From the NCBI RefSeq assembly GCF_037975245.1, contig NC_092567.1, positions 12,786,876 through 12,850,875 on the forward strand: a stretch of DNA of 64,000 nt, read 5' to 3'. The notes beneath the pieces were generated by a model. The model did not search any database. It was not told the origin of the DNA and saw nothing but the letters and a program-made list of their open reading frames with translations. Positions 27,405-51,500 of the stretch are shown here, piece after piece. Within the stretch, counting starts at the first letter, position 1; every line of letters starts with the position of its first letter. The stretch is from Apostichopus japonicus (lineage: Eukaryota; Echinodermata; Holothuroidea; Aspidochirotida; Stichopodidae). The position numbers were made by a program, and so were the translations under genes.

Positions 27405-27545
27405 TTACCATGATGAAATAGCATATGATGGATTGGGCATTGGAGGCTTAAAGGCGACGTGCTGCTGGCCGGCAATCAGGTTCATGTTAACATCATCTTG
27501 GTTGTGAGGTGGTAGAAACGGCCTTGCACTGAATCTAATAGATCC
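27405..27545 (-). CDS. lamin-like gene, exon 14 (C-terminus and stop)
   Basis: Residues 684-729 after a CTTCTTCAG acceptor, phase 0. The segment is Pro/Asn/Gln-rich and ends [14 protein letters not shown] then TAA. There is no cysteine near the end, so farnesylation through a CaaX box is excluded for this isoform. Confidence 0.85.
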   Translation of the reverse strand, partial: GSIRFSARPFLPPHNQDDVNMNLIAGQQHVAFKPPMPNPSYAISSW

Positions 27546-30500
27546 CTGAAGAAGATAAAATAATCAACTATTAACACTCATGAAATAGAAGGAGAAAATG
27601 AAACACGGATTGTCTGAATAGCAGGATGCTGAATTGTTTGTTTACCATTCACTTGGTAAGCTCTTCCTGGTCTCATTAAACTTCATTTCCAAATAATCAG
27701 TGTACGGAAGCAGCATTACCAACACTGGTTTACATACAACAATATAGCAGCACATTCCTGAATGATTGTACAAGCAAACCAGCAGAACAATGCAATCTAA
27801 ACTTGCCTTAAAAGACCAGTGCCATGTAGTCTAACTAATAATGGTTATGATAAACTGCTCCCCTTCTCTGGCAAAGATGCCCAACCAAACTGCAGCATTC
27901 AAAATAAAAATAGCTTCCCTCACTGGAACAGAGATTTACGGTCTACTGTTGATTGTGAGTCAGTTTAACCTACTACCCCGCTACAAAGTCTCATAAATGA
28001 ACCGGTGGATCACAGAAAATAAATCACACCGAAAGATCAAACAAGGGCCAATTATATGAGAGATTTTTAGGAAGAGTATTCCGTAAACAAGACACACATT
28101 CTACCTAACAATAGAATGTCATCGCAGTTTGTCACCTCTCCAATTGGTGTGCTTACATTAAGATCCTAAAACATAGGTTGGTACTTAAAAATAAGGTAAA
28201 TGATTTTGAAACAACAAGTGTGCACTTCTATGCGGATGTCTCTACATTAGCCTATTTTATACATGAGGGAGAGGGGCTGATATTTTAAGTAACGATAGCA
28301 ATAAAGTAGATTTAGATGCAGTAGGTCCAAGGTACTTTTTAAGAAAAGTCACCCAGGAAAGAACCTGGGCAAGAAAAACGAAGGTTATGCTGAAGTGAAG
28401 ACTTATGTTTTCATGTATAGGTATACAGTATACATGAAATAGCTATACCAACATAATCAAGTCCTTAAACAATAAATATTTTTATTCAAAAATTCAAGTT
28501 GGTGGTCTAAGAGTTGGTGGTCTAAGATTACATTGGCATATGAATTGGCCTTGATGCAAATATTCTGTTTTGAATTATTTGCCCAAATTTCCAACTGTCC
28601 TATTGATACAGATCATAGATTTGAAGTAGCAACATGTTCAGTGTATGGATACAATTGCCATTAATTGAGACTGATATGTACTGTGCATGAAGACACTCAG
28701 GTTGAATTATTCAGCTAATAATAAATGAACATGAATAACTCAACAACAAATATCTCAAGTTTCACTGTACATATCAACCCAGCATGCTTTTGTCTTGTTC
28801 TTGAGAATGAATGTAAACAGTCACAAATCAAATCATTATAATCAGCTGAAACATCATTTGATGATGTGGATTTATTGTTTACTGCATGCAGATAGTACAT
28901 AAAGCACCCAGCACACAGGAATGTGGATGGGCATTTATCTATTGCTGTATACATGTAGTACATAAAGCAACAGCATACAGGGAAGTGGTTTTATATATTA
29001 CTGTACACATGTAGTACATACAGCACCAGCACACAGGGATGTGGATTTATCTACACATGTAGTACATAAAGCACCAGCACACAGGGATGTGGATTTATCT
29101 ATTACTGTTCACATGTAGTACATAAAGCACCAGCACACAGGGATGTGGATTTATCTATAACTGTTCACATGTAGTACATAAAACACCAGCACACAGGGAT
29201 GTGGATTTATCTATTACTGTACACATGTAGTACATAAAGCACCAGCACACAGGGATGTGGATTTATCTATTACTGTTCACATGTAGTACATAAAGCAACA
29301 GCACACAGGGATGTGTATTTATCTATTACTGTACACATGTAGTACATAAAGCACCAGCACATAAGGATTTGGATTAATCTATAACTGTACACATGTAGTA
29401 CATAAAGCACCAGCACACAGGGATGTGTATTTGTCTATTACTGTACACATGTTGTACATAAAGCACCAGCACACAGGGATGTGTATTTGTCTATTACTGT
29501 ACACATTTAGTACATAAAGCACCAGCACACAGGGATGTGTATTTGTCTATTACTGTACACATGTAGTACATAAAGCAACAGCACACAGGGATGTGTATTT
29601 ATCTATTACTGTACACATGTAGTACATAAAGCACCAGCACATAAGGATTTGGATTAATCTATAACTGTACACATGTAGTACATAAAGCAACAGCACACAG
29701 GGATGTGTATTTGTCTATTACTGTACACATGTAGTACATAAAGCACCAGCACACAGGGATGTGGATTTATCTATAACTGTTCACATGTAGTACATAAAGC
29801 ACCAGCACACAGGGATGTGGATTTGTCTATAACTGTTCACATGTAGTACATAAAGCACCAGCACACAGGGATGTGGATTTATCTATTACTGTACACATGT
29901 AGTACATAAAGCACCAGCACACAGGGATGTGGATTTATCTACTACTGTACACATGTAGTAAATAAAGCACCAGCACACAGGGATGTGGATTTATCTATAA
30001 CTGTTCACATGTAGTACATAAAGCACCAGCACACAGGGATGTGGATTTATCTATAACTGTACACATTTAGTACATAAAGCACCAGCACATAGGGATGTGG
30101 ATTTATCTATAACTGTTCACATGTAGTACATAAAGCACCAGAACACAGGGATGTGGATTTATCTATAACTGTACACATGTAGTACATAAAGCACCAGCAT
30201 ACAGGGATGTGGATTTATCTATAACTGTACACATGTAGTACATAAAGCACCAGCACACAGGGATGTGGATTTATCTATAACTGTACACATGTAGTAAATA
30301 AAGCACCAGCACATAGGGATGTGGATTTATCTATAACTGTACACATGTAGTACATAAAGCACCAGCACATAGGGATGTGGATTTATCTATAACTGTACAC
30401 ATTTAGTACATAAAGCGCCAGAACACAGGGATGTGGATTTATCTATTACTGTACACATGTAGTAAATAATGCACCAGCACACAGGGATGTGAATTTATCT

Positions 30501-33500
30501 ATGACTGTACACATGTAGTACATAAAGCACCAGCACACAAGGATGTGGATTTATCTATAACTGTACACATTTAGTACATAAAGCACCAGCACATAGGGAT
30601 GTGGATTTATCTATAACTGTTCACATGTAGTACATAAAGCACCAGCACATAGGGATGTGGATTTATCTATAACTGTACACATTTAGTACATAAAGCGCCA
30701 GAACACAGGGATGTGGATTTATCTATTACTGTACACATGCAGTAAATAATGCACCAGCACACAGGGATGTGAATTTATCTATGACTGTACACATGTAGTA
30801 CATAAAGCACCAGCACACAGGGATGTGGATTTATCTATTACTGTACACATGTAGTAAATAATGCACCAGCACACAGGGATGTGAATTTATCTATGACTGT
30901 ACACATGCAGTACATAAAGCACCAGAACACAGGGATGTGGATTTATCTATAACTGTACACATGTAGTACATAAAGCGCCAGAACACAGGGATGTGGATTT
31001 ATCTATTACTGTACACATGTAGTAAATAATGCACCAGCACACAGGGATGTGAATTTATCTATGACTGTACACATGTAGTACATAAAGCACCAGCACATAG
31101 GGATGTGGATTTATCTATAACTGTACACATTTAGTACATAAAGCGCCAGAACACAGGGATGTGGATTTATCTATTACTGTTCACATGTAGTACATAAAGC
31201 ACCAGCACACAGGGATGTGGATTTATCTATAACTGTTCACATGTAGTACATAAAGCACCAGCACATAGGGATGTGGATTTATCTATAACTGTACACATTT
31301 AGTACATAAAGCGCCAGAACACAGGGATGTGGATTTATCTATTACTGTACACATGTAGTACATAAAGCACCAGCATACAGGGATGTGGATTTATCTATAA
31401 CTGTACACATTTAGTACATAAAGCACCAGCACATAGGGATGTGGATTTATCTATAACTGTTCACATGTAGTACATAAAGCGCCAGAACACAGGGATGTGG
31501 ATTTATCTATAACTGTACACATATAGTACATAAAGCACCAGCATACAGGGATGTGGATTTATCTATAACTGTTCACATGTAGTACATAAAGCACCAGCAC
31601 ACAGGGATGTGGATTTATCTATTACTGTACACATGTAGTACATAAAGCACCAGCACACAGGGATGTGGATTTATCTATAACTGTACACATTTAGTACATA
31701 AAGCACCAGCACACAGGGATGTGGATTTATCTATTACTGTACACATGTAGTACATAAAGCACCAGCACACAGGGATGTGGATTTATCTATAACTGTACAC
31801 ATGTAGTACATAAAGCACCAGCACACAGGGATGTGGATTTTTCTATAACTGTACACATTTAGTACATAAAGCACCAGCACACAGGGATGTGGATTTATCT
31901 ATAACTGTTCACATGTAGTACATAAAGCACCAGCACATAGGGATGTGGATTTATCTATAACTGTTCACATGTAGTACATAAAGCGCCAGAACACAGGGAT
32001 GTGGATTTATCTATTACTGTACACATGTAGTAAATAATGCACCAGCACACAGGGATGTGAATTTATCTATGACTGTACACATATAGTACATAAAACACCA
32101 GCACACAGGGATGTGGATTTATCTATTACTGTACACATGTAGTACATAAAGCGCCAGAACACAGGGATGTGGATTTATCTATTACTGTTCACATGTAGTA
32201 CATAAAGCGCCAGAACACAGGGATGTGGATTTATCTATTACTGTTCACATGTAGTACATAAAGCACCAGCACACAGGGATGTGGATTTATCTATTACTGT
32301 ACACATATAGTACATAAAGCACCAGCACACAGGGATGTGGATTTATCTATAACTGTTCACATGTAGTACATAAAGCACCAGCACACAGGGATGTGGATTT
32401 ATCTTTAACTGTTCACATGTAGTACATAAAGCACCAGCACACAGGGATGTGGATTTATCTATTACTGTTCACATGTAGTACATAAAGCACCAGCACACAG
32501 GGATGTGGACTTATCTATAACTGTTCACATGTAGTACATAAAGCACCAGCACATAGGGATGTGGATTTATCTATAACTGTTCACATGTAGTACATAAAGC
32601 ACCAGCACACAGGGATGTGGATTTATCTATTACTGTTCACATGTAGTACATAAAGCACCAGCACATAGGGATGTGGATTTATCTTTAACTGTTCACATGT
32701 AGTACATAAAGCACCAGCACACAGGGATGTGGATTTATCTATTACTGTTCACATGTAGTACATAAAGCGCCAGAACACAGGGATGTGGATTTATCTATAA
32801 CTGTACACATGTAGTAAATAATGCACCAGCACACAGGGATGTGGATTTATCTATTACTGTTCACATGTAGTACATAAAGCACCAGCACATAGGGATGTGG
32901 ATTTATCTGTAACTGTTCACATGTAGTACATAAAGCACCAGCACACAGGGATGTGGACTTATCTATAACTGTTCACATGTAGTACATAAAGCACCAGCAC
33001 ACTGCATAGGGATGTGGGAAATGAAAAAAAAAGGTACAAGAAAGATATTATAAGCTTACTTTGATTGTCAATGTAATGAAAGTTTTAAAGTGCACAAGTG
33101 ATAAATGGTAATCATATTCATACTGTCATTGAGTTCCCCACAATATAACAAAAGGGAATTGCTGCCTTATGCTCTGGCATACATTATATTAAATTTTGTT
33201 TACACAGAACACATGGTATATTGTTATACAGAGGATTTTAATGACATACTGACCTGTGATGTTGAACTTGATGGTCTAGAAGAAAGCCTCAGTGGTGCAC
33301 TTCCAGTGCGAGTAGCACTAATTCCATAACCAGCATACAGCTCACCTAATAGAGTCAATTAATTCATGAACAACTTGCAATTGTGAAATAATTAATGTTA
33401 CTTCATCATACTGAACTTAATGCAAAATATGACAGTTCTATTGAAGAGACGATCCCATTGTAAGTGTCTTGTCTTGATTAAGTCAGCTATTGGTATTACT

Positions 33501-36500
33501 TAAGTACATTCCAATTCCAAATAATTTGCTAGGAAATGGGTCTGTGTCAACTCAAACAGGTGAAGTTAGATGGCAATTTCCTGTAACACTTTAAGAAACT
33601 AACAACTTGATCCTTGATACGTATAGTACCTCTACTGTTAAAGTGCATTAGGTGTTAAGTAAGCAAACAAATTACATTCAAAACCTGCTATCAAATAGAT
33701 GCAACAACCTTTAAGAAACTAACAACTTGATCCTTGATACATATAGTACCTTTACTGTTAGAGTGTATAAGGTGTAAAGTAAGCAAACAAATTACATCCA
33801 AAACCTGCTATCAAATAGATGCAACAACCTAAAATGTTTTAGGACATTTGACCAGGGTAAAGTATTTATGCTGCAAATGTGATCATCATCTTTGGTACAT
33901 TTAAGACTCTTACCAGGAGCAGCATCAGGACGTGTAATTTGTGAACGGCTTTGCCTGACAAGACTGCTGCCATCATTACCGAGTGTCTTGACTCTGGTTT
34001 CTCCGGCCCCTGGGTGTGTATCATGTTGACTATACTGACCATGAGGATGCTTAGCAGGCGCAAGAGATGGAGGGTCTTGCTTGTCTCTGTCCAACAAAAG
34101 TAGAAATAAAGCAATGTAGTCTTCACAAAATCCTTATACTGCTATGTGAGCAACTTGATCTGACACTAATAATCTGTATTATCCATTGAACATGTATTGA
34201 TGTTACCACACATGACCCAGCGTGTACATAGTACATATGAATTAAATTCAATCCAAACAGGTTACATGTATCACATGATTTAGTATGGTTTCATTATCCA
34301 AAACTTTGAAGTTAATCAAATTACAGTATTGAAATAAATTTGCATACTATATTAACTCTATGTAAATATCAGTTGCTCCAGTCTCCAATGTTGTAAATGA
34401 ACAGTCATTTTGAAAATAGTTGGATATGATTAAATATTTAAGGAATGTGTTGTTGTAGATTGATGCAATCAGATTGGTCTATGACAACTGAAGGTTTGCC
34501 AGCAGGTATCAGCTTCAGTTCTTTGCAACTTTTATGTAGTGTATAGTTAATGACACAGAGAAACCCTTTACTCTTGTTCCATTGTTTTGTGTTAAGACAT
34601 AAATAAATTATTAGATTAACAGTTTACTACAAAGACATGTTATGCAGCTTGAAAGAGAAGAACAATAATTATAGAAATATCTTTTTGTAAAGAGAGAAAA
34701 TGTATCACAAAGGACTTGGTAGCATATGTTACCTCTTCAAAACAGTAACTGGTTTGCCATCTATTTCTACTTCAAATTCAGGATGAAGATTTGTGATTCC
34801 TTCTTCTGACTCCTCCCCCTTTTCCTCCTCAACAGATTTATCATCACTTTCATCATACTTTCTTGCTGTTTTAGAAAATCTGTGAGCAGCAGTGGTCCAT
34901 GCAATGGCCTGAAGAGAACAGAAAGAAACATCTCTCTTGAAGTTGTACCAATTTAACTAACATTAATTCTATTCCAGCAGCACATTCTACTCTATTTACA
35001 GCTGAAAACATTATCACATTATGGAGCAATAATGGCCACCAAGGCAGTTAATGAAGAGACAATACACAAAAAAGATAATTCAAATTCAGAGACTGGCAGG
35101 TGTACGATACAAGCCTTTGTTTGAAATGCAATCCAATCAATTACAAAGTCATCAAGTTTATGATGATAGTTGTCAGTGCAAGGAGGGGTATGCATGATAA
35201 AAAGTACGGTCAAAATACAGAATACTGAGTAATTCACAGATAGATTTAAGCAACCTTTAATATACTCATATAAATATTGAATACACATAAAACTGAAATT
35301 ATACTGAATTACTATCATGTGGACCCAGGATGTATAAAGTTTGCTTTTAACTTGTTCACATCTGTATTGCATTTACATAACATTTCTCAACTTTGTATCT
35401 TTGAAGAACTTGAAAATGAACTGTTTTGAAAGTGTCAACGTTTTGTAGATATCCGTCTTATTTGAGAACTCAATCTGTCTTTGGTAAGAATACTCTCCAT
35501 CTTGATAATGAAACATATGATGAGACTGTACAATGAAATGGTTTGCATCAAGGCAAACTTCATGTTGCCTTCATCTATAGAATTGATGTTTGAAGCTGCA
35601 TACAATCAACTCACATGACCATTGGGCTTGCACAGTATTGTGGTACATTCTGGACCAGTGCCCCACCTATGTTGCTCCTTCCAAAGAAAATCTGTTGGAG
35701 GTTGATGTTTGGCCAGACTTGATGCACTCCAAACCTACAGAGATTAAAACAATAGACATTTTTACCATCACTTCCTACTAATTGCATGATGGTGCATCCT
35801 CATTAGTCAAGGACACAAGATAGCAAAGTGATATAACCTTTATCACCCCTACACTTAGTGTACTGGGATTACATATTGTACCATATTTGGCAAAATTGTT
35901 AGTAAAATTGCTGCCCATCCTCACAACCCTCAGTCTGACATAATGGGGATACCTTAGGGTGGCACAGTCACATGGTGTGGACTTATCATTTATGAAGTTG
36001 AGGACAAACAAGAATGTGTGTGCATATTTGTGTGTATATGTAACCAAAAAGTGTGTCACAAACGCCTAAACTGTCAGGCCGATTGATTGCACACTTGGTG
36101 GGTGTATGCAAGGGTATGGGATGTAGTTCGTTTGTGAATCATGATGTCATAGTGTCAAAGGTCAGAGGTCAAATAGACAAAAAACAGCATTTTGGCCATT
36201 ATGCATGTACGGAAATGACAATATTGCCTTATGCTTCATACACAAGTAGGATATCACAGACTATATGTCTACAGTGTAGTTATTAATGCAAAAGTCTAAA
36301 GGTCATGTGATCAAAGGAGGTCAGAGGTCAAAATTTGTTATATTTGTTCTAAAAAGGGTTTGCAAGCTACTCTTCAGTCATAAAGCTTCAAACTTGGTTT
36401 GTATGTGCCTGGGCATGGGTTGTAGCAACTGCGTGTCTAATGACGTCATAGGACCAAAGGTCCGAGGTCAAAACAGCAAACGAGGTGTTTGCTGTTGGAT

Positions 36501-39500
36501 ACAGTTTTACGCCAACATGTGGACACTGTCGGTAATTTTGCCAGGGTTTGTTTTATGGACTTTAGCTCCGCCTTTAACACTCTTAGCAATTCGAACTTAC
36601 TTCGTACGTTAGATGCTCATGTAAACAACAACATCATTTCATTGCTGTATCACTTTTTATTCAACAGAACTCAATATGTATACTGTGATGGGATCAGCAG
36701 TGAAGATATTGTCACTAATACTGGTGTCCCACAAGGGTGTTGTTTATCACCATTGCTGTTTGGCGTTTATACTGATTCCTTGTCCACACTTTATGAAAAT
36801 GTTTACATTATAAAATATGCAGATGATACAGCTTTTGTTGGTTTGTGTAATGATAAATATCCACAGAGCATTGTCAATTACCACACAGCTATTGGGAGAT
36901 TGTAGCGTGGTGTGAAACCAATTACCTTTTTATAAACAGCTCCAAAACCAAGGAATTAATTGTTGATTTCCGTTCAGTTCAGATGCATGATCCAGTTATA
37001 ATTAATGATAGTGAGGTTGAGGTTGTGTCAGATTTTAAATATTTAGGACTCATTTTTAATCATACTCTCACTTGGGACTCTCATATAGGCTCAATACTTG
37101 CGAAAATAAAGCAGCGGCTATATTGTATTTATAGGTTGGGAGGATTTGGTCTAGAATATGAGAAACAGCTTTGGCTCTTTCGTTCCATGGTGCTTTCACT
37201 CATGGTCTATTGTGCTCCTGTGTGGCTCTCTTCCTGTTTCAAGACTCAACTCAATTTGATTAACAGACATTTCAGAAAGTATTATTCTGTAGATGATCAG
37301 TACATTGAAGATATTTTACTTCATTATGTAAGAGGGATTTTGACTGATCCTGACCATCCTCTTCATAAGTTTTACACCATTCCACGTAGGTTGTATACCC
37401 TACCTCGTATGCGTACTGAACGCTTTAGACATTCTTTTTTACCGAGGAGTATAAAGCTTTTGAATTGTCACATAACTAGATGATATTTTTATCATATTTT
37501 TGTATATATATTTTGCATAATTTTAAGCTGCGGATTCCATTTTATTATGTCTTCATTTTATGATTGATATCAATAAATTTTACTTTACTTTACTTTACTA
37601 AAAGTCAAATAACCCAAAAAACAGCATTCTGGCCATTACAGATATACCCAAAAAAATAATATGGCCGAAACCTTGACACAAGTATGATACCATAGACCAC
37701 ACATCTTCAATGCATTAATTAATGTCACATGATCAAAGGTGGAAAAGATTAAAACTTGTGCACGTACCAAAGTGACCTTAACTGTGTCGTTAACTTATTT
37801 CAAGTTTCATGTTAAGGTTTTCTGGTAGCTAAAGTTGATTGCTTAACAAAATTGCTAGAAATTTAAATTTAGTAAAAATATAGCTGAACGTGTTGTACCA
37901 TGAATAAAGTATGCGATCTGCAACTCCATGGATTGCCTACTTGTTTATGTAACAAAAGCAACCTTTACTCTAGTAAAAATTAAAAGATTAGACTTTCACT
38001 TTTGATCTCAAAGGTTGCAATAACACAAAGTCATGAAATGAAAGGTCAGGTTAAAGGAACAAATAGCCTGTTTGAGTTTGAAATGAGAGATGTTAAATGG
38101 CAGTAGCAATAATTTCAACAATATAAAGCTTTTCTGAGTTGAAATTTTGTAGCACAGCAAGCAAGACTATGTTGCTTCTATTCAGGATTTGGTGTTGACA
38201 GCCAGTACACAATCGTGTATACAGGATAAACCTTTGCTGGTTCATTACCCGCTTCTTAATACCTTTAAGGCAGTTGCTTGAACCAAACCTATGAATTCAA
38301 ATTGACAAAGATATTCCTAAGAACTCACAGTCATAACAGCACCAGCTCTAAATCTTGTTCTCGGCTCAAATCGATAGACAGCTACAGGATGGCCGCCAAT
38401 ATTCTGCTGAATCATGAAACCTCCAACATCCACATCTTTACCGGGTGAAGAGTTGAAGAGACGAACAAATTTCCCATCTTCATTAATTTCTAATATCTTA
38501 AGGTCTCCAGTGGTGCTGAAAGAAGGTGTTTAATTTTAGAGTGATTAAGAGTGACTTAAGTAAATTGTACAGTAGTCCTTCAAATTATAAGCAGCATGGA
38601 TGAATTTCAACTTTAATAATCACGTACCTGTAAGAAAACATCAACTCTATATAAGTTATTTCTTCTCACTTAATATCATGTCACTACTTTGAGTCACAAA
38701 GTTAAGTCCATAATACCCTAAGAGTCCCTTGGAAAACAACAAAGAAACTGCTAAGAATTCTCAGTAATCTCTCATGACACAGATACTGTGACAATATCTT
38801 AGTATGAAAGAATTATAAAATGTAAATCAAGATATTTGAGCTCAATACAAATTCAGTCACATTACAACAGCAATGCTTACCTTGATGTGGCTGTTGTGAA
38901 GTCATGTGACATTGGTGGAGTTCGCGTAGCTGGAGCAGAGTTTGATTTTGAATAAACCTTTGTTTTAATTGTACCAGACCTGTTCATATCTTGGAAGATA
39001 GAGTCAAAATAATCCCTCCCTTGTCCCATGGTGGCAGGAACAGATGCTGGTCTGGATCCTACAAGATAGACAGTAATAACAAACCCTTTCAAGTGGATTC
39101 TACAAGATAGACAGTAATAACAAACCCTTTCAAGTGGATCCTACAAGATAGACAGTAATAACAAACCCTTTCAAGTGGATCCTACAAGATAGACAGTAAT
39201 AACAAACCCTTTCAAGTGGATCCTACAAGATAGACAGTAATAACAAACCCTTTCAGGTGGATCCTACAAGATAGACAGTAATAACAAACCCTTTCAAGTG
39301 AATTCTACAAGATAGACAGTAATAACAAACCCTGTCAAGTGGATCCTACAAGATAGACAGTAATAACAAACCCTTTCAATTGAATTCTACAAGATAGACA
39401 GTAATAACAAACCCTTTCAAGTGGATCCTACAAGATAGACAGTAATAACAAACCCTTTCAATTGGATCCTACAAGATAGACAGTAATAACAAACCCTTTC

Positions 39501-42500
39501 AAGTGGATCCTACAAGATAGACAGTAATAACAAACCCTTTCAATTGAATTCTACAAGATAGACAGTCATAACAAACCCTTTCAATTGAATCCTACAAGAT
39601 AGACAGTAATAACAAACCCTTTCAAGTGGATCCTACAAGATAGACAGTAATAACAAACCCTTTCAATTGAATCCTACAAGATAGACAGTAATAACAAACC
39701 CTTTCAAGTGGATCCTACAAGAAAGACAGTAATAACAAACCCTTTCAAGTGGATCCTACAAGAAAGACAGTAATAACAAACCCTTTCAAGTGGATCCTAC
39801 AAGATAGACAGTAATAACAAACCCTTTCAAGTGGATCCTACAAGATAGACAGTAATAACAAACCCTTTCCAGTGAATTCTACAAGATAGACAGAAAATAA
39901 CAAACCCTTTCAATTGAATTCTACAAGATAGACAGTAATAACAAACCCTTTCAAGTGGATCCTACAAGATAGACAGTAATAACAAACCCTTTCAAGTGAA
40001 TTCTACAAGATAGACAGTAATAACAAACCCTTTCAAGTGAATTCTACAAGATAGACAGAAAATAACAAACCCTTTCAATTGAATTCTACAAGATAGACAG
40101 AAAATAACAAACCCTTTCAATTGAATCCTACAAGATAGACAGTAATAACAATCCCTTTCAAGTGGATCCTACAAGATAGACAGTCATAACAAACCCTTTC
40201 AAGTGGATTCTACAAGATAGACAGTAATAACAAACCCTTTCAAGTGGATCCTACAAGATAGACAGTAATAACAAACCCTTTCAATTGAATTCTACAAGAT
40301 AGACAGTAATAACAAACCCTTTCAAGTGGATCCTACAAGATAGACAGTAATAACAAACCCTTTCAAGTGAATTCTACAAGTGAGACAGTAATAACAAACC
40401 CTTTCAAGTGAATTCTACAAGATAGACAGTAATAACAAACCCTTTCAAGTGAATTCTACAAGATAGACAGTAATAACAAACCCTGTCAAGTGGATCCTAC
40501 AAGATAGACAGTAATAACAAACCCTTTCAATTGAATTCTACAAGATAGACAGTAATAACAAACCCTTTCAAGTGAATTCTACAAGATAGACAGTAATAAC
40601 AAACCCTGTCAAGTGGATCCTACAAGATAGACAGTAATAACAAACCCTTTCAATTGAATTCTACAAGATAGACAGTAATAACAAACCCTTTCAAGTGGAT
40701 CCTACAAGATAGACAGTAATAACAAACCCTTTCAATTGGATCCTACAAGATAGACAGTAATAACAAACCCTTTCAAGTGGATCCTACAAGATAGACAGTA
40801 ATAACAAACCCTTTCAATTGAATTCTACAAGATAGGCAGTAATAACAAACCCTTGCAATCGAATCCTACAAGATAGACAGTAATAACAAACCCTTTCAAG
40901 TGGATCCTACAAGATAGACAGTAATAACAAACCCTTTCAATTGAATTCTACAAGATAGACAGTAATAACAAACCCTTTCAATTGAATCCTACAAGATAGA
41001 CAGTAATAACAAACCCTTTCAAGTGGATCCTACAAGATAGACAGTAATAACAAACCCTTTCAATTGAATCCTACAAGATAGACAGTAATAACAAACCCTT
41101 TCAAGTGGATCCTACAAGAAAGACAGTAATAACAAACCCTTTCAAGTGGATCCTACAAGATAGACAGTAATAACAAACCCTTTCAATTGAATTCTACAAG
41201 ATAGACAGTAATAACAAACCCTTTCAATTGAATCCTACAAGATAGACAGTAATAACAAACCCTTTCAAGTGGATCCTACAAGATAGACAGTAATAACAAA
41301 CCCTTTCAATTGAATTCTACAAGATAGACAGTAATAACAAACCCTTTCAATTGAATCCTACAAGATAGACAGTAATAACAAACCCTTTCAAGTGGATCCT
41401 ACAAGATAGACAGTAATAACAAACCCTTTCAATTGAATCCTACAAGATAGACAGTAATAACAAACCCTTTCAAGTGGATCCTACAAGAAAGACAGTAATA
41501 ACAAACCCTTTCAAGTGGATCCTACAAGAAAGACAGTAATAACAAACCCTTTCAAGTGGATCCTACAAGATAGACAGTAATAACAAACCCTTTCAAGTGG
41601 ATCCTACAAGATAGTAATAACAAACCCTTTCAAGTGAATTCTACAAGATAGACAGAAAATAACAAACCCTTTCAATTGAATTCTACAAGATAGACAGTAA
41701 TAACAAACCCTTTCAAGTGGATCCTACAAGATAGACAGTAATAACAAACCCTTTCAAGTGAATTCTACAAGATAGACAGTAATAACAAACCCTTTCAAGT
41801 GAATTCTACAAGATAGACAGAAAATAACAAACCCTTTCAATTGAATTCTACAAGATAGACAGAAAATAACAAACCCTTTCAATTGAATTCTACAAGATAG
41901 ACAGTGATAACAATCCCTTTCAAGTGGATCCTACAAGATAGACAGTCATAACAAACCCTTTCAAGTGGATTCTACAAGATAGACAGTAATAACAAACCCT
42001 TTCAAGTGGATCCTACAAGATAGACAGTAATAACAAACCCGTTCAATTGAATTCTACAAGATAGACAGTAATAACAAACCCTTTCAAGTGGATCCTACAA
42101 GATAGACAGTAATAACAAACCCTTTCAAGTGAATTCTACAAGTGAGACAGTAATAACAAACCCTTTCAAGTGAATTCTACAAGATAGACAGTAATAACAA
42201 ACCTTTTCAAGTAGATTCTACAAGATGGACAGTAATAACAAACCCTTTCAATTGAATTCAACAACTAAACATCATATTTATGTTTTCTACTCAGAAATAA
42301 ATGTCACCTGATAGCATGTCCTTGGCTCGGTTTGTAGATGCAAAGCAAGTTTTTTTTTTTAACAATACTTGATGAGAATTGCACCATACTGTTATACTTC
42401 ATCAAACCTTCCTCTGCATGGTGTACAGTTGATAGCTTTAGTTTGGTAGAATCATTATGATAGAATTATAAATATCTTACTTGTCAGAGGATTTAATACA

Positions 42501-45500
42501 TCTCTGTCTCTACCAGCCCTTGAGTCCACTGTTCTCGGTCTGCCTTCAGATCCAGGGAATGAAGCCAGTGGATATTTAGTTGTCGCCATGTGTCTAAACC
42601 TTTCAAGTAAGCAAACAAAATACCCATTGAATCTAGACCAAACATGCACAATCAACTTAATGACCTAGTCAACAAATGCTTAAATATTTACCCATGAAGG
42701 TATTGTGGTGAAGTTGTTTCTTTTTTAGAATTGTTTTATTTTTCTTCTGTTTTTGATAAGCTTGATTGTTTGAAAACTTACTTTTTCTCTTCTTCATCCA
42801 GCATGTTTTTCAAGCTCTCTAGCTCTGCCCTGATTGGCTGCTTAGTGCCAGTTGCTTGAGATATTTCATGCATCTTTTGAATCAAGCTATCTTGTAATAG
42901 TCTTTGATTTTCTTCCAAGGCCCTAATATGAACTGTGTTCTTCTCCCTGTCATTTCTTAAAGTGTCCATCAGGTTTGCAGTCTGTTTTTCAGCTTGATCC
43001 AACTGGAACAAAAGCAATAGTTGTTATGGTCAATACGGTGAAATTTTATTTTCATTACATTTATAGAACAGACTCAATACAAATCACTTTCTTCCTTGGA
43101 GGATGCAACAGTAACAGTAGAATGCTATTCAGGCAATATATACCTGACCAAGAAGAAACAGGAATGTACTAACTGCAACAACAAATAAGAGTGAAAGGAT
43201 CAATAAACGCTGCAGGAATTTCGCCCTCTGTAAAATAACTAGTCAAAACTACCTTTCCCCAAATTTCCAGGAATTTTCTAATTATTTTTTCACACCTACT
43301 GTGTTGGCAGTCACGTTGTCACAAGGGCGCTTTCAAAAATGATGTCAGCGAGCAACATCGTAAGTTAAACAATTCCCTCTCTTGATATGAATTGTACTCA
43401 ACAAAAAGAGCGTACTGCAATACAGTATTCTCTTAGCAGAAAAGGCTAGGGTTTATTTCTCCTTTAAAAATCATGCTCAGATGTTGATGATACACGCAGT
43501 GTCTCTCTGGGAGAGTTTCTCCAAGTCTTTAGTTACTGACTGAACTAAACTACTGACCAGTATATTTACTTGAAAGTAATGAGCTTCAAGCAGAGCATTA
43601 AAAGCAATGACTGTTGACTCCTGTATGTACAATCACACTTGGAATGCTTTCTGTTGAGATACTATTAAATGTCTACTCACATGCCCACTGACATATAACA
43701 TGACACAAGAACAAAGAAAGCAGTGGGTCTCATTGAAAAATACCCCAATTGTGGTTAAGGCTTGGTGAGAATTCAGTTTGGGAAGAGCACAATTTGCATG
43801 AGAAATAGTTCCCTTTGGTATAAATATTTCTGTTTTCCTTTTCCCTATTATTTGATTTCACCTTTCAAAATTTAAGAGAGACAACTCTGGCATACACAAC
43901 AATAGGACAAAGAAGAACATCAATTACTTGTACAAAAAGAAACAGCTTCTAACGCAAGTATTTATTCTAAGGTCCAGGAAGGAACATGTCCAGAAACAAC
44001 CATCACTGGAGTAGGAAGCTATCAAAACATGGAGGAGGCGGGCAAGAAAACTGTTCTGGTTTTGTGTCTTCATTATTTCCATTTAAATTTTAGTTTTGAA
44101 GATGTAATGAAGGTCCAGATATAACCTTTGAAAATCCAACCATTATATCTTCAAATCTCAACTTTCTCTTTCATAGTTTTGACTAGAATTATGGTTTGAT
44201 TAATTCAATGAATGCCACTCCAGACAGGTTCATTGAATGTGTGTGAAGTGCACATCTGCATCAAAGCAGGTCAGATGTACTGTGTATGGTACATGACTTT
44301 AAATATTTGAGTGAAAGCAAAATAACACATACTTGTAAAGTTGTGATCCTCTGACTAAAAATGTTGCAACCAACCCCTGTGGCCCCTAATTAGATGAACT
44401 GCCAGAACTGCATATTGTCATAATCATAGCAGGTCCTGCATACTAGTGTAGCGGTGCTTACTACCGTTGTAGCGGTGCATACTACCGTTGAAGCGGTGCT
44501 TTCTACCGTTGTAGCAATGCGTACTACCGTTGTAGCGGTGCATACTACCGTTGTAACAATGCGAACTACCGTTGTTGCGGTGCATACTACTGTTGAAGCG
44601 GTGCTTTCTACCGTTGTAGCGGTATGTACTACTGTTGCAGCGGTATGTACTACCGTTGTAGTGGTGCGTACTAACGTTGTAGTGGTGCGTACTACCGTTG
44701 TAGCGATGCGTACCACCCATGTAGCGGTGCGTACTACCGTTGTTGCGGTGCATACTACCGTTGTAGAGGTGTGTACTACTGTTGTAGCGGTGCGTAATAC
44801 TGTTGGAGCAATGCGTACTACTGTTGTAGCAGTGCGTACTACTGTTGTAGCGGTGCTCACTACCGTTTTAGAGGTACGCACTACCGTTGTTGCGGTGCGT
44901 AATACCGTTGTAGCAATGGGTACTACCGTTGTTGAGGTGCGTACTACCATTGTAGCGGTGCGTACTACTGTTGTAGCGGTGCTCACTACCGTTGTAGTGG
45001 TGCGTACTACCGTTATTGCGGTGCGTACTACCATTGTAGCAGTGCGTACTACTGTTGTAACGGTGCTCACTTCCTTTGAAGCGGTGCGTACTACCGTTGT
45101 AGCAATGCGTTTTTAAAGAATTATTGTAACCTACAAAATTGAGAAATATAGCACCATTGTGCATCTAGGCCTTCCTTAACTTCAAAAAAATCTCAATGGG
45201 GAGGGGGAACCCCCTCCCTTTAGAGCCCTCCCCAGGACGGGGATCACTATGTAAGTAACATATCAATGAATAATGGGCCGGTCTAGGTGAAAATGCCCAG
45301 GCTGGTTTTAAGACCCAGTCGGTCCCTGAAAGGTGGTACATACTTTGAAAGGTTATATAAAAGGATATACAATTCAATCAATCGATCAATCAATCAATCA
45401 GAGAGAATAAGATGGAGGAAGTGTCAAGGAAAATTGGGAGTCTGTGTAAAGGCTGAATTTCACATCTTTCCCATTTATAAGCAAGTACAAGGTATTATGA

Positions 45501-48500
45501 TATGTGACATTACTATTGTAATCAAACATTGACCTACCCTGCTTTTAAGAGAATAGGTTAAATCTTCCTATTGGAAAGAATCTTTTGTGGACTCACCTTA
45601 CACTTAGTACTCGATAGCTCTTCAATCAATCTGTCAATTTCCCTCTCAAGACTTTTATTTTCATTCCCCAGCTTTTGAATATTCTCACTGTCTTTGCCCA
45701 TCTGGTGCTTTAATTCTTGAAGCTTTGGAAAAATTCAAACATATGAGAATGGACGCTTTCAACATTGATCTTCAAAGTAAGATATGTAGATTAACATGTA
45801 GTTTAACCATATCCGTAACTATATCTGTAACTAAGATTACCTGTACCTTAATCCTTTTAACTATCCATGGGAAAGAAAACGGTTATAAGAATAGTCCAGA
45901 GGTTGTCATGTCAATGGTAAATAACCTTCTTTCTTTCAACCGTTTAACTAAGATAATATGATTACCAACTCTCATACCGTCCAAGATATAATCTGTAAAA
46001 GGACAGCTATCGATTTCAATAATGGTCACAAACACAAGTGTATACTTTCTTCATACTGTCTGTAAAGTGAATGCAAATTTAAGCTAAATGTTTAGCAACA
46101 CTTTGTGCACAACAAACCTCTCATCTGTTATTCTTGCAGACTACATAGTGTTATCTATCTAATGAGACTCTGTATCTGCCAAGGAATGTTAAGTTATTGT
46201 GCTATATATTATCCTTTATTACTCTTACTTTTCTCTATACACCTAAGTTATCTCTTTCTGAGATTCATTTTACTATGCCCTTTCTTTGCAACAGTTCTTG
46301 GCCTCTCCTTAGCAACTGCATACAATTGAGTGGCAGTTTAATCCATATATTATTGCCATTTGATTACATATATTTACATTCTTATGGTAAGTGGATTCTG
46401 TCTCATCTTTAAAGTTTTGTAGGTCTCTTTCTGCTGCTTGTCTCATATTTTCCAGCGCCTCGTGAAGGGTGTTGTCTGGTCGGGCTAACTCCCTGACTTT
46501 AGTCTCTAACTGAAGAATCCTGTTAGCATCATCATCAAGGCGTAGCTGCTGCTCCTTGGATTCCTGCAAGAAATGTAAATATGAATATCTGGATGGTCAA
46601 ATCATGAAGGAGTGAAATAAATGCAACCACTGTATATTACAGAACCCCAACATCAATATTACATTGGATATACAACCAACAAAGATACAGTATACATCAT
46701 TAAGAATAAGATGCTAGAATGCTTCAACAACTTTCACTTAAGTTAATATTTAGCTTTAAAATAGAAAAGCTAAATTAATGAAAATGACAGTTTATGCAAT
46801 ACTTAGACATTTGAATTTAACTTGGTACAAAACCCATACAGTCAATAACGATGGTAAACTTTAAAAAAGCTGAAATACAATAATGAAAAAGAAGAAGAGA
46901 TCCCTTGTTTCTCAATCCACACTAGATACAGACAAGTATTAATACTCTGCTAATGAAATGAAATGCTGATACTCTGGGCTCATAACACTACAAAAGAGAT
47001 TGAAATAATATACATGTAGAGGAAGCAGAACCATACATGAGTGTCTTACCTTTCAAGATTCCTACATCCACCTCTTTATGATAATCAACATAATGTGACC
47101 AAGACTTAAAAAATTATGTAAGGTCAGATTTATTGTTTTGATAGACAGACAGAAATCATAGAGCAGTTTAACATGAACTTCAGCAGAAGCTTAAACAGCT
47201 ACTAAAATGTAGCTCCTTACATTAATAAATCTAGCAGAATTGCATAGAAAAATATGTCTTCATTTATCTAATTAAAGGGCAACATAGAGCATAAATAACA
47301 CTTTACCTCTTGCTGTAAGCGGCTGTCAAATTCCTGCTTTCTCTCCAAGGCTCTGTGCTTGTCCTCTGCCTGCTGCCTGCCAACTATTTCCCTGTCTAAC
47401 CTATAGGAAACAGAGAAAATAATTGAATTCATCACTAACAGGGAATCCTCAGTAGAGATCATTGTAAGCCAATGTTAGGTCCCAATGGAGTAAGATTACA
47501 GGGAATCCTCAGTAGAGATCATTGTATTCCAATGTTAGGTCCCAATGGAGGAAGATTACAGGGAATCCTCAGTAGAGATCATTGTATTCCAATGTTAGGT
47601 CCCAATGGAGGAAGATTACAGGGAATCCTCAGTAGAGATCATTGTAAGCCAATGTTAGGTCCCAATGGAGTAAGATAACAGGGAATCCTCAGTAGAGATC
47701 ATTGTATTCCAATGTTAGGTCCCAATGGAGTAAGATAACATCTTTCCTTATACACTAGTAGATTAATGTTTCAAACAAAGAGGTTGCAGGAAGATTTAAC
47801 TCATTGGTGTTAAATTAACATTCCAATAAACTACAATCATGAAAACCCTTATTTTCAGTAATTATACTGAACTGTGAACAACCATATTTCCAAGTGTTGA
47901 ATAGGTCAAAGACACAATCCTTTCAAACAAGTCTTTTCATTTTGATATGGAAGGCAGTTGTTTTACAGTACTAAACAGCCATATATACATGTGAGAAAAG
48001 ACACAAAGGCTGTTTAATACAATTCAGGACACATGGTTATCCAACCTTTGGGTTTGGCTATTTTAAATATTTTTGTTGTTGATTGATTGATATGAAGATA
48101 AAATGGTGAGTCTACTTTACTGATAACAGATCAGACAAATCACTTAACGAGTGAGTTCACATAGCCAATAAATAAAATCCAAGCTATACCACAGTGACAT
48201 ACACAAGATCAAAAGTGAAGCAGGTATTGGCTTAAGTGTGTGCAGGGTTTAGTGTAAACCAAATGTATCCTAGGCACTCCTAAGTTTCCAGAACTTCCAA
48301 ACATGGAGAAAGAAATAACCTCAGATATTCTTATTTTCTCCCCAAAAAGCAAGCAACTTGGTAATTTATCCCCAAAGATAATCATTTAGATATTCATATC
48401 CAAACTTGAGCTTGTACACAATGCACTTTTCAAATTTAACAGGAAAATGGCCACATAGTAGGCAGAGCTTGCCTTGGAGAACATGTTACTACTAAACAGC

Positions 48501-51500
48501 ATTCGATTTAGTGCCTTTTTTTGCTTAGCCAAAAATGCTATACATAATTGGTTTTGTATAGCAATTGACCAAATCTTGATGACACACGTACCCACATAGC
48601 TAGCTGTCCAGAGATCTGGTCCGAATAAAATGCAAATATGAATGAATCATATTGCAGCTTGCAGTTTGTGTTCACTAATTTGCAATTACTGAATACTGTG
48701 GTAAATATACTGCATCACATATTTACGATATACATTTTGCGATGCGATACCTGCTAAAATCAAACACTGCTACTAAATATCTTTGAGTTTGATATTATAA
48801 GATACTTTGATAAGAAAGAGAAGTAACCACATCTAAAAGTTACCAAACATGGATACACTCACCTAGTATAATTAGTTTAGTGTATGTTTCATGTTGAGAA
48901 TGTTTATCAGTCCGCTTATTGGAAATTAAGAAACATTGGTCTAATGAGGAAGTACCTTCATGTATTTGTTACTTCAAAATTGGATTGCTTGAATCTCTTT
49001 TATTTGGACTTTCTGAGTTCCAAATTCAGAAACTTCAAAAGATTAAAAACACTGCAGCACAAATAGTCACTGAAGAAGATGTCATATGTGAGGACACGCA
49101 GGTAATAAATAGGCAGGAGAGAGTGCTAATTTCTACCACCGCTTGTTCCAGTGGCTGAGGGGTATATTACTTCTTCTCCCACATAGCATGTTCGAGATTA
49201 TTTTAAATGACTACATAAACAACAAACAAAAAGGACGGTGCAGCACCTTCAGGTGGTTTCCTCAATTACATCTTAAAAACAGCATCTTCGGCAATAAACT
49301 CTACATTTGAAACAGAGCGTTAAAATGTCTCGTGTACGTATAAATTTTAATGTATCAAGGTACAGCAACGAACACCAAAAGGGACAAATGAACAACCAAC
49401 ACATGGCTACCTGTGCGATGCACTACACATATCACAAAAGATCTTTGCTGGCTCCCTATTGACTTTCGAGTAAAGTTTTAAATACTCCTACTTGCATTTC
49501 ATGCTCATGATTTACAACAGCCTGTGTATTGCCCTAACCTTCTATCATCTTACCTTCCTGTATGCACATTACCTTGGACAAGCAAATCATACCTCTGTGT
49601 ACCTAAACCTCGTGTAGAGGCTTATGGATTCAGAGGTTTGACTTACTCTGCCGCAAGTCTTTGGAATCAGTTACCAGACAATCTTCCAACTTGTTCTCAT
49701 GTATCTACTTTTAAGAGTTACTGAAGACTCATTATTTCTGTTGTGCATTTCAGTGTTGATGCTTTTCACTTTGTGAAGTGCCAAGGGCAGTTACTCGTTT
49801 CCTAGATGGGCACTGTATAAATCTACATTATTATTATTATTATAATAACATTTTTAATATCTTAAAGTATTTGCACTGACTTTCTCTGCATGTCCTCATT
49901 TTGCCGAGTGAGTGCACTAACGTCATCCTCTAGATCGTGTGCTCTCTTCATAAGTTCCCCACACTTTGATTTCAGTTGCTGACAGTCCATGTCCTTCTGA
50001 GCAGATAGTTTGTGTGCATCATCAACCTCCGATTGTAAAGCTCTGTTTCGCTGGGTCTCTACTGCTAATCTAAACCAAGAAAGGTGATATCAATTTGATT
50101 CTTTCAGGTGAGAAATTAAATCAAATTCTGCAATGACAAAACTGAGCCAACTACAACTTCTTAACCTAAAACGAAAACATTTAGTGGTTCCGATGCCCAA
50201 ACATATTCATACTGTGGTAAGCCATACATGTTAATATTCATGAACTTTTGCACACCAATATGAAGACAATTATCTGTTCACTAATGGAGCAATTTTAAAA
50301 CAGAAAGGTATCAGGAATCAGTTATCATGTTGACAAAGTCTATTTAGTGATATCGCATAAAAAAAAAGACATGATTGAATATTAATGAGGTCAAATTTTA
50401 TGATCTCATAAGCATGTATCTATATACTTACAACGTATTATCCAAGTTCATGTATACATTTAAATACACATACTATTTCTGAGGTATCTTATTAAGAATT
50501 TTATGTTCACTGTTCAATATTCATGACATGTACAAAAAAAAACATGATTGATAGTATGAATGTAGTGTGACAAACCTAATAAGCCAATAATGAAAACCTT
50601 GGAACATTTGGTTCTTGTCTTGTATTTGAAAGCCAATTTTTGCAATTAGATGAATATTGTTGACATAAAGTTGGAGACGTTATGAAATGTGCTTCTTATG
50701 TACCAACATCACTATACCAGTATGAACCAAATTGTACGTTAATCCCCGCCAATTTATTAATATTAATGGCATTAACCAAAAGAATCTCCATCCCTTGTCC
50801 ACTAATCTCCTTACATCTATCTCTTTGTGTTCACCATGCTCATTAACTTGTATGTATTTTGTGCGTGTTTTGTCCCTCCTGTTACTGTTACTTGTCATTT
50901 ATCCTCTGAAGAAGATCCTGCTAGGATCGAAACGTTAGGCCAACTTACTTTTACACAAGAAATAAACTAAATCAGATATACAGTTGCAGAGATATTGACA
51001 TTTTAAAACTTTTATGGTTAGTCCTACCCACTCATCAATATTCATGAGATGGGAACCAAACAAAAGGGCACTTCTACTCATTGTAGGGCATCTGCCTATC
51101 AAGTATAACATGATTTAACTTGTGTTTGTTGGGACATGGTGTTTACAAGAAGTTTTTGATGATTTCCCATTAAGCCCTCCATGAATATTAATGACGTAAC
51201 ATTGTTGTTGCAAAGAACATTTAGGCCTACATGAACTAAATTGGACATACGGTTGAAAGAGATATTGACATTTTAGGATTTTTATGTAAAGCCTGACCCA
51301 TTAATTAATATTCATGACATGGGGACCAAACACAATAGGGCACATCTACACATCATGGGGCAACTTCCTATCAAGTATGATATTGATTCAACTTGTAGTT
51401 GTTGAGATATCGTGTTTACAAGCTAGCCATGACATATACACACATACACGCCAGCACGATTGCAAAGGTTACTGAGCCTTCCACATTGTAACCAAACTGA

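Follow-up and report, generated by a model that had tools for sequence, protein, structure and literature searches.

A 41-bp minisatellite of 78 units crossing the exon 9 acceptor of an intermediate filament gene in Apostichopus japonicus

Introduction

The closest described relatives of the array presented here are the mirages of amphioxus, minisatellite-like tandem duplications of an intron-exon boundary which are described for the genes Adh3 and TnC and for the globin genes BflGb6 and BflGb9 (PMC3087553). Similar repeats in PGBD5 and further mirage cases are given in a second account (PMC3902484), and regular splicing was suggested by RT-PCR for the amphioxus mirages (PMC3087553, PMC3902484). 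Human segmental duplications are reported to contain internal tandem repeats at exon-intron boundaries, with units of on average 30 bp repeated about 4 times, which can lead to new introns (PMC2812944). The VNTR in intron 18 of human ABCA7 is described as consisting of 25-bp units, each beginning with a splice donor, and its length as affecting splicing (PMC5954066).

The window, i.e. the whole stretch of 64,000 nucleotides which was analysed, contains an array that is apparently of the same kind as the amphioxus mirages and not new in kind, but occurs in an animal of apparently a different phylum and far exceeds the globin mirages in unit number. As reported for the BflGb6 mirage, the unit includes the 3' end of an intron together with the start of an exon, and, as described for the amphioxus mirages, splice signals are present in many units and the concerted turnover leaves out the edges of the cluster (PMC3087553). 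The unit is 41 bp long, compared with 150-160 bp in the BflGb6 and 10-72 bp in the Adh3 mirages, and its copy number is 78 and 40 in two copies of the locus, which are probably alleles, compared with 6 and 3 between the haplotypes of the BflGb6 mirage (PMC3087553), a comparison which covers the globin cases only. Unlike in the amphioxus mirages, only about six exonic bases are included per unit. The host is an echinoderm, whereas the cited accounts report mirages in cephalochordates only (PMC3087553, PMC3902484); it is treated here as incidental and not as defining. In agreement with an echinoderm host, the mitochondrial COX1 located at one end of contig C35 (16,099 bp) reads normally under genetic code table 9 (AAA = Asn, ATA = Ile), which echinoderms share with flatworms, and its protein appears close to that of echinoderms. 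With table 5 the frame is open but has Lys where animals have Asn, and with table 2 it is broken; amphioxus was rejected as host on the basis of this code.

The array resembles the repeats described from human segmental duplications in that tandem repeats across splice boundaries alter gene structure (PMC2812944), and the ABCA7 VNTR in that the intronic repeat units carry a splice site and in that a premature stop results there from retention of a unit (PMC5954066) and would result here from use of a decoy. In ABCA7, however, it is the donor side that is repeated and the splicing effect has been measured, whereas the present array is on the acceptor side and is known from sequence alone. An expressed gene in which a minisatellite multiplies a splice site, but on the donor side, was also reported by Turri et al. 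in 1995, with multiple splice donor sites in a human interferon-induced transcript (6-16/IFI6). No echinoderm minisatellite at a splice site was found among the literature matches listed in a limited search. With this array, minisatellites across a splice boundary would be known from echinoderms as well as lancelets, and with unit numbers in the dozens, and one diploid individual, apparently with two lengths of a natural acceptor series, would provide a clean test of 3' splice site choice among tens of near-identical sites.

The host gene and exon 9

The array is located in intron 8 of a gene on the minus strand of the window, with the following features:

27405..52890, minus strand: complete coding part of the gene, 771 amino acids in 15 coding exons, intermediate filament protein with a lamin tail domain (gene model, Pfam and PDB)
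42481..42599, minus strand: exon 8, 119 nt, donor gtaaga, followed by intron 8 in phase 1 (gene model)
39059..42480, minus strand: intron 8, 3422 nt
38881..39058, minus strand: exon 9, 178 nt, true acceptor at 39059/39058, donor gtaagc (gene model; same in the second copy)

The coding frame comprises 2316 nt including the stop codon, with GT and AG at 14/14 introns and consistent phases; that translation begins at this start codon, with no coding exon farther 5', is our own reading of the sequence. The spliced protein matched the rod (PF00038, E 7.2e-16) and lamin tail (LTD, PF00932, E 5.2e-15) families of Pfam, both above the curated cut-off, and the tail domain matched the lamin A/C tail in the PDB (E 1.3e-23). 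When parts were searched singly (one rod exon against the PDB and seven frames against Pfam), the LTD exon alone was above the cut-off. The protein was also examined as a possible nuclear lamin, and no C-terminal CaaX box was present in the model, which ends in ...PSYAISSW, the last exon being of our own modelling. In pyrimidine content the exon 9 acceptor does not stand out, with 12 of 16 positions from -20 to -5, compared with 8 to 15 in the gene's 13 other acceptors. For exon 8 a second possible acceptor lies six bases downstream of the first (42593-42599), and either leaves the frame unchanged.

The array and its repeat unit

Two further features define the array:

39059..42258, minus strand: 41-bp minisatellite, 78 units, all ending in AG, 3200 of the 3422 nt of intron 8 (TRF and unit split)
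39053..39058, minus strand: GATCCA, the first six bases of exon 9, identical to the start of the commonest unit

Chance is far from accounting for so large an array. It was delimited by TRF at 39053-42251 (period 41, 78.0 copies, 94 % match, score 5420), and splitting on the minus strand gave 71 units of 41 bp, six of 42 bp and one of 37 bp. The unit crosses the intron-exon junction, consisting of approximately 35 bases from the end of intron 8 together with the GATCCA of exon 9, and in the usual unit it ends, read in the sense of transcription, in TGTCTATCTTGTAG. The final unit ends at the exon 9 acceptor (39059/39058), and the sequence of exon 9 departs from the unit straight after GATCCA.

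An earlier reading, made from the letters of the window and without database searches (the sequence-only reading), had described an acceptor minisatellite of about 78 copies of 41 bp, each containing the real 3' splice site of exon 9 and its first exon bases, and both points were confirmed by the unit split and by the GATCCA common to exon 9 and the commonest unit. It had also placed some 78 near-identical acceptors before the true one. The likeness is real, as the last 22 bases are identical to the true acceptor in 57 of the 77 decoys, but the number needs correction: 77 acceptor-like ends lie upstream, and the total of 78 includes the true site. AG is present at the end of all 78 units. The bases GATCC, with which exon 9 itself begins (GATCCA), directly follow 36/77 decoys, and the other 41/77 are followed by AATTC, GATTC, AATCC or AATCT.

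A genome search with a 28-base core of the unit, allowing at most 2 mismatches, gave 111 matches, which were accounted for by two loci on the same contig, C7 (71 + 40). An origin of the unit from a dispersed element was ruled out by this confinement of the core. It was also considered whether the exon 8 acceptor, which has ACTTGAAAGG in common with the unit, had given rise to a part of it; the likeness was not significant, 33 of 300 shuffles being equally good.

A second copy of the locus

The second copy of the locus is found at about 9.61 Mb of C7. Its array has 40 units, with AG kept in 39/40. The coding sequence there is likewise intact, and 14/14 introns have GT and AG. The coding sequences of the two copies differ in 16 codons, 14 synonymously and 2 nonsynonymously (pS 0.028, pN 0.0011). 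With the arrays masked and only pieces of more than 400 bases compared, colinear counterparts to most of the window are present at the second copy, 92.4 to 99.5 % identical and interrupted by insertions and deletions; approximately 57-60.6 kb of the window is without such a partner. The stretch of the second copy stops at a 100-N gap at 9697276, past which partner sequence is found at 10.73 Mb of C7, 99 % identical over 4 kb. Upstream, the stretch at 9.52 Mb, which is itself tandem-repeat, has as its only match outside its own neighbourhood a sequence at 12.74 Mb, 86 % identical. Pieces of chromosome with near-identical partners at differing offsets have the look of unpurged haplotigs, and the arrays of 78 and 40 units are therefore read as probably being alleles of one animal, a real segmental duplication being the less likely alternative. 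C7 seems to hold both haplotypes piecewise, and gene counts from the assembly may be inflated.

Turnover of the units

Each array contains 22 unit types, of which only four are common to both. The unit type adjoining exon 9 is present in both arrays, once in each. At the far end, the copies differ by two bases in the first unit and by one base in the second. These patterns show internal turnover with fixed array ends. One part of the window array resembles another:

39059..40496, minus strand: units 44-78, resembling units 1-35 (42258-40825) at a lag of 43 units

At this lag 19/35 unit pairs are identical, compared with 2/8 at the next best lag. The likeness is probably the trace of a block duplication which enlarged the window array, and such a duplication can explain most of the difference between 78 and 40 units.

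Premature stops after decoy use

When the decoys of the window were entered in the frame of exon 8, a stop was met at codon 4 in 75/77 and at codon 14 in 2/77, and none of the 77 was open. The sequence-only reading had placed TGA at the fourth codon for three variants of the unit and had expected a prematurely stopped transcript from use of an upstream copy; the premature stop is confirmed for all 77, at codon 4 in these 75 and later in the two units with codon 14. In the second copy the stop was at codon 4 in 38/39 decoys and at codon 14 in 1/39, one unit without AG being included. Random 41-mers, generated with the plus strand composition of 580 flanking bases, gave a stop within four codons in approximately 21 % of cases, and 99 % gave one within ten copies. 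A design of the unit as a source of poison stops is weakened by this result, since an early stop is to be expected in roughly one of five random units. The in-frame TGA is a single inherited property of the unit.

Constraint on the decoy acceptors

Over all 78 + 40 units, the 20 non-acceptor columns of the unit had 20 distinct variant events and the 21 acceptor columns likewise had 20 (Mann-Whitney p = 0.87), a test of constraint to which 40 events give little power. By copy, the events in non-acceptor and acceptor columns were 12 and 13 in the window and 15 and 7 in the second copy, and the latter alone leans towards constraint on the acceptor half. Variable columns were 12/20 in the non-acceptor half versus 10/21 in the acceptor half, and 11/20 versus 7/21, in the two arrays. 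The acceptor half thus shows neither extra constraint nor loss. A hint of constraint on the decoy acceptors, obtained when only the 41-bp units were counted (70 and 39, with the first unit of each array omitted), vanished with all units; the restricted count was dropped because the omitted units carry acceptor-half changes. By these counts and by the random-unit stops an effect on the RNA is neither proved nor excluded.

Interpretation of the array

The array is most readily understood, with a probability of roughly 0.7, as a tolerated and fast-evolving array of the mirage type, which would cause some unproductive splicing at a small cost. Tolerance is argued because the reading frames are intact in both copies. 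The array would have begun when a 41-bp segment, made up of approximately 35 bases at the end of intron 8 and approximately six at the start of exon 9, was duplicated in tandem, and it would then have grown and shrunk by unequal exchange and block duplication, the outermost copies staying fixed to the gene. The copy adjoining exon 9 is presumably still the working acceptor. The first units would be exposed early in transcription, and U2AF may bind many of them, but the last unit would be favoured by exon definition, which should work best at the normal exon 9 length of 178 nt. The true site is predicted to be the first AG after the branch point in the last unit, which is probably a second reason for its winning.

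The nearest upstream copies would be used at a low rate, adding 41 nt or a multiple of this and bringing in the stop at codon 4, from which it would be approximately 200 nt or more to the following junction (the first codons subtracted from 178 + 41 nt). A stop codon so far before a junction usually marks a transcript for nonsense-mediated decay. Most of the decoy-spliced transcripts would probably be removed in this way, and the array would be close to neutral. It stands against tolerance that near-identical decoys at 41-nt spacing beside the true site are expected to compete with it, and that the human ABCA7 VNTR, which also carries splice sites, does alter splicing according to its length (PMC5954066).

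It is conceivable, though unlikely, that strong signals in the exon or downstream of it pick the last acceptor so reliably that the decoys are virtually unused and the RNA is not affected at all. The exon-side sequence after GATCCA is unlike that behind the decoys, as such signals would have it, and the amphioxus globin and Adh3 mirages are reported without interference in regular splicing (PMC3087553). This explanation differs, however, from that of a tolerated array in the rate of leakage alone.

Still less probable is a regulatory role, in which decoy splicing would divert a share of transcripts, dependent on array length, to a product stopped at codon 4, to be degraded or to yield a rod without a tail, and would in this way set the level of the full-length form. 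The 77 decoys, 57 of them equal to the true acceptor over 22 bases and all leading to an in-frame stop, would suit such a role, and in human ABCA7 the length of the VNTR is reported to affect splicing, with retention of a single unit resulting in a premature stop (PMC5954066). The decoy acceptors, however, bear no sign of selection (20 versus 20 variant events, at low power), an early stop is found in 21 % of random units and some stop in 99 % within ten copies, and the genes are intact behind arrays of both 78 and 40 units. For these reasons the proposal of the sequence-only reading that the array tunes mRNA output found no support; what stood of its overall interpretation was the overlap with the junction, the place of exon 9 in an intact frame and the premature stops. 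An extended form is similarly doubtful: each added acceptor would raise the share of transcripts stopped after the rod, the array length of an individual would set the proportion of full-length to tailless or degraded mRNA, and the genes of the animal may carry many acceptor arrays. Inflation or collapse of the array by misassembly is very improbable: assembly of such arrays is difficult, pieces of both haplotypes seem to lie on C7 and the resemblance at lag 43 might stem from a false expansion, but the array is found at two separate copies of the locus, most unit types being private to one of them, and the blocks at lag 43 are identical only in part (19/35), unlike simple assembly stutter.

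Minisatellites and other differences around the array

In 228 kb around the second copy (C7:9500000-9727999), 31 arrays with a period of at least 10 and at least 5 copies accounted for 22.9 % of the sequence. Were the genome equally rich in minisatellites elsewhere, some arrays would overlap splice junctions without design. A 22-bp array of about 667 copies lies within the same 228 kb.

The copy number differs between the copies of the locus in three of four such arrays of the window. A 21-bp array in intron 6 has 31.6 copies in both. Two others, besides the 41-bp array, are the following:

28925-33002: 56-bp array in intron 14, away from the junctions of the model, 73 copies versus 30 in the second copy
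47438-47740: 60-bp array, its end 37 bp upstream of the exon 4 acceptor, 5.1 copies versus one at the other locus

The 60-bp array before exon 4 is perhaps a minisatellite caught early.

The copies also differ in intron 10, of which approximately 1.1 kb (36474-37599) is missing from the second copy. No Pfam match above the cut-off was obtained for the frame at 36857-37483, and the plus strand frame at 36444-36905 contains what we take to be a YADD-like motif. The segment 36474-37599 is probably a fragment of a non-LTR retrotransposon by which the two copies differ.
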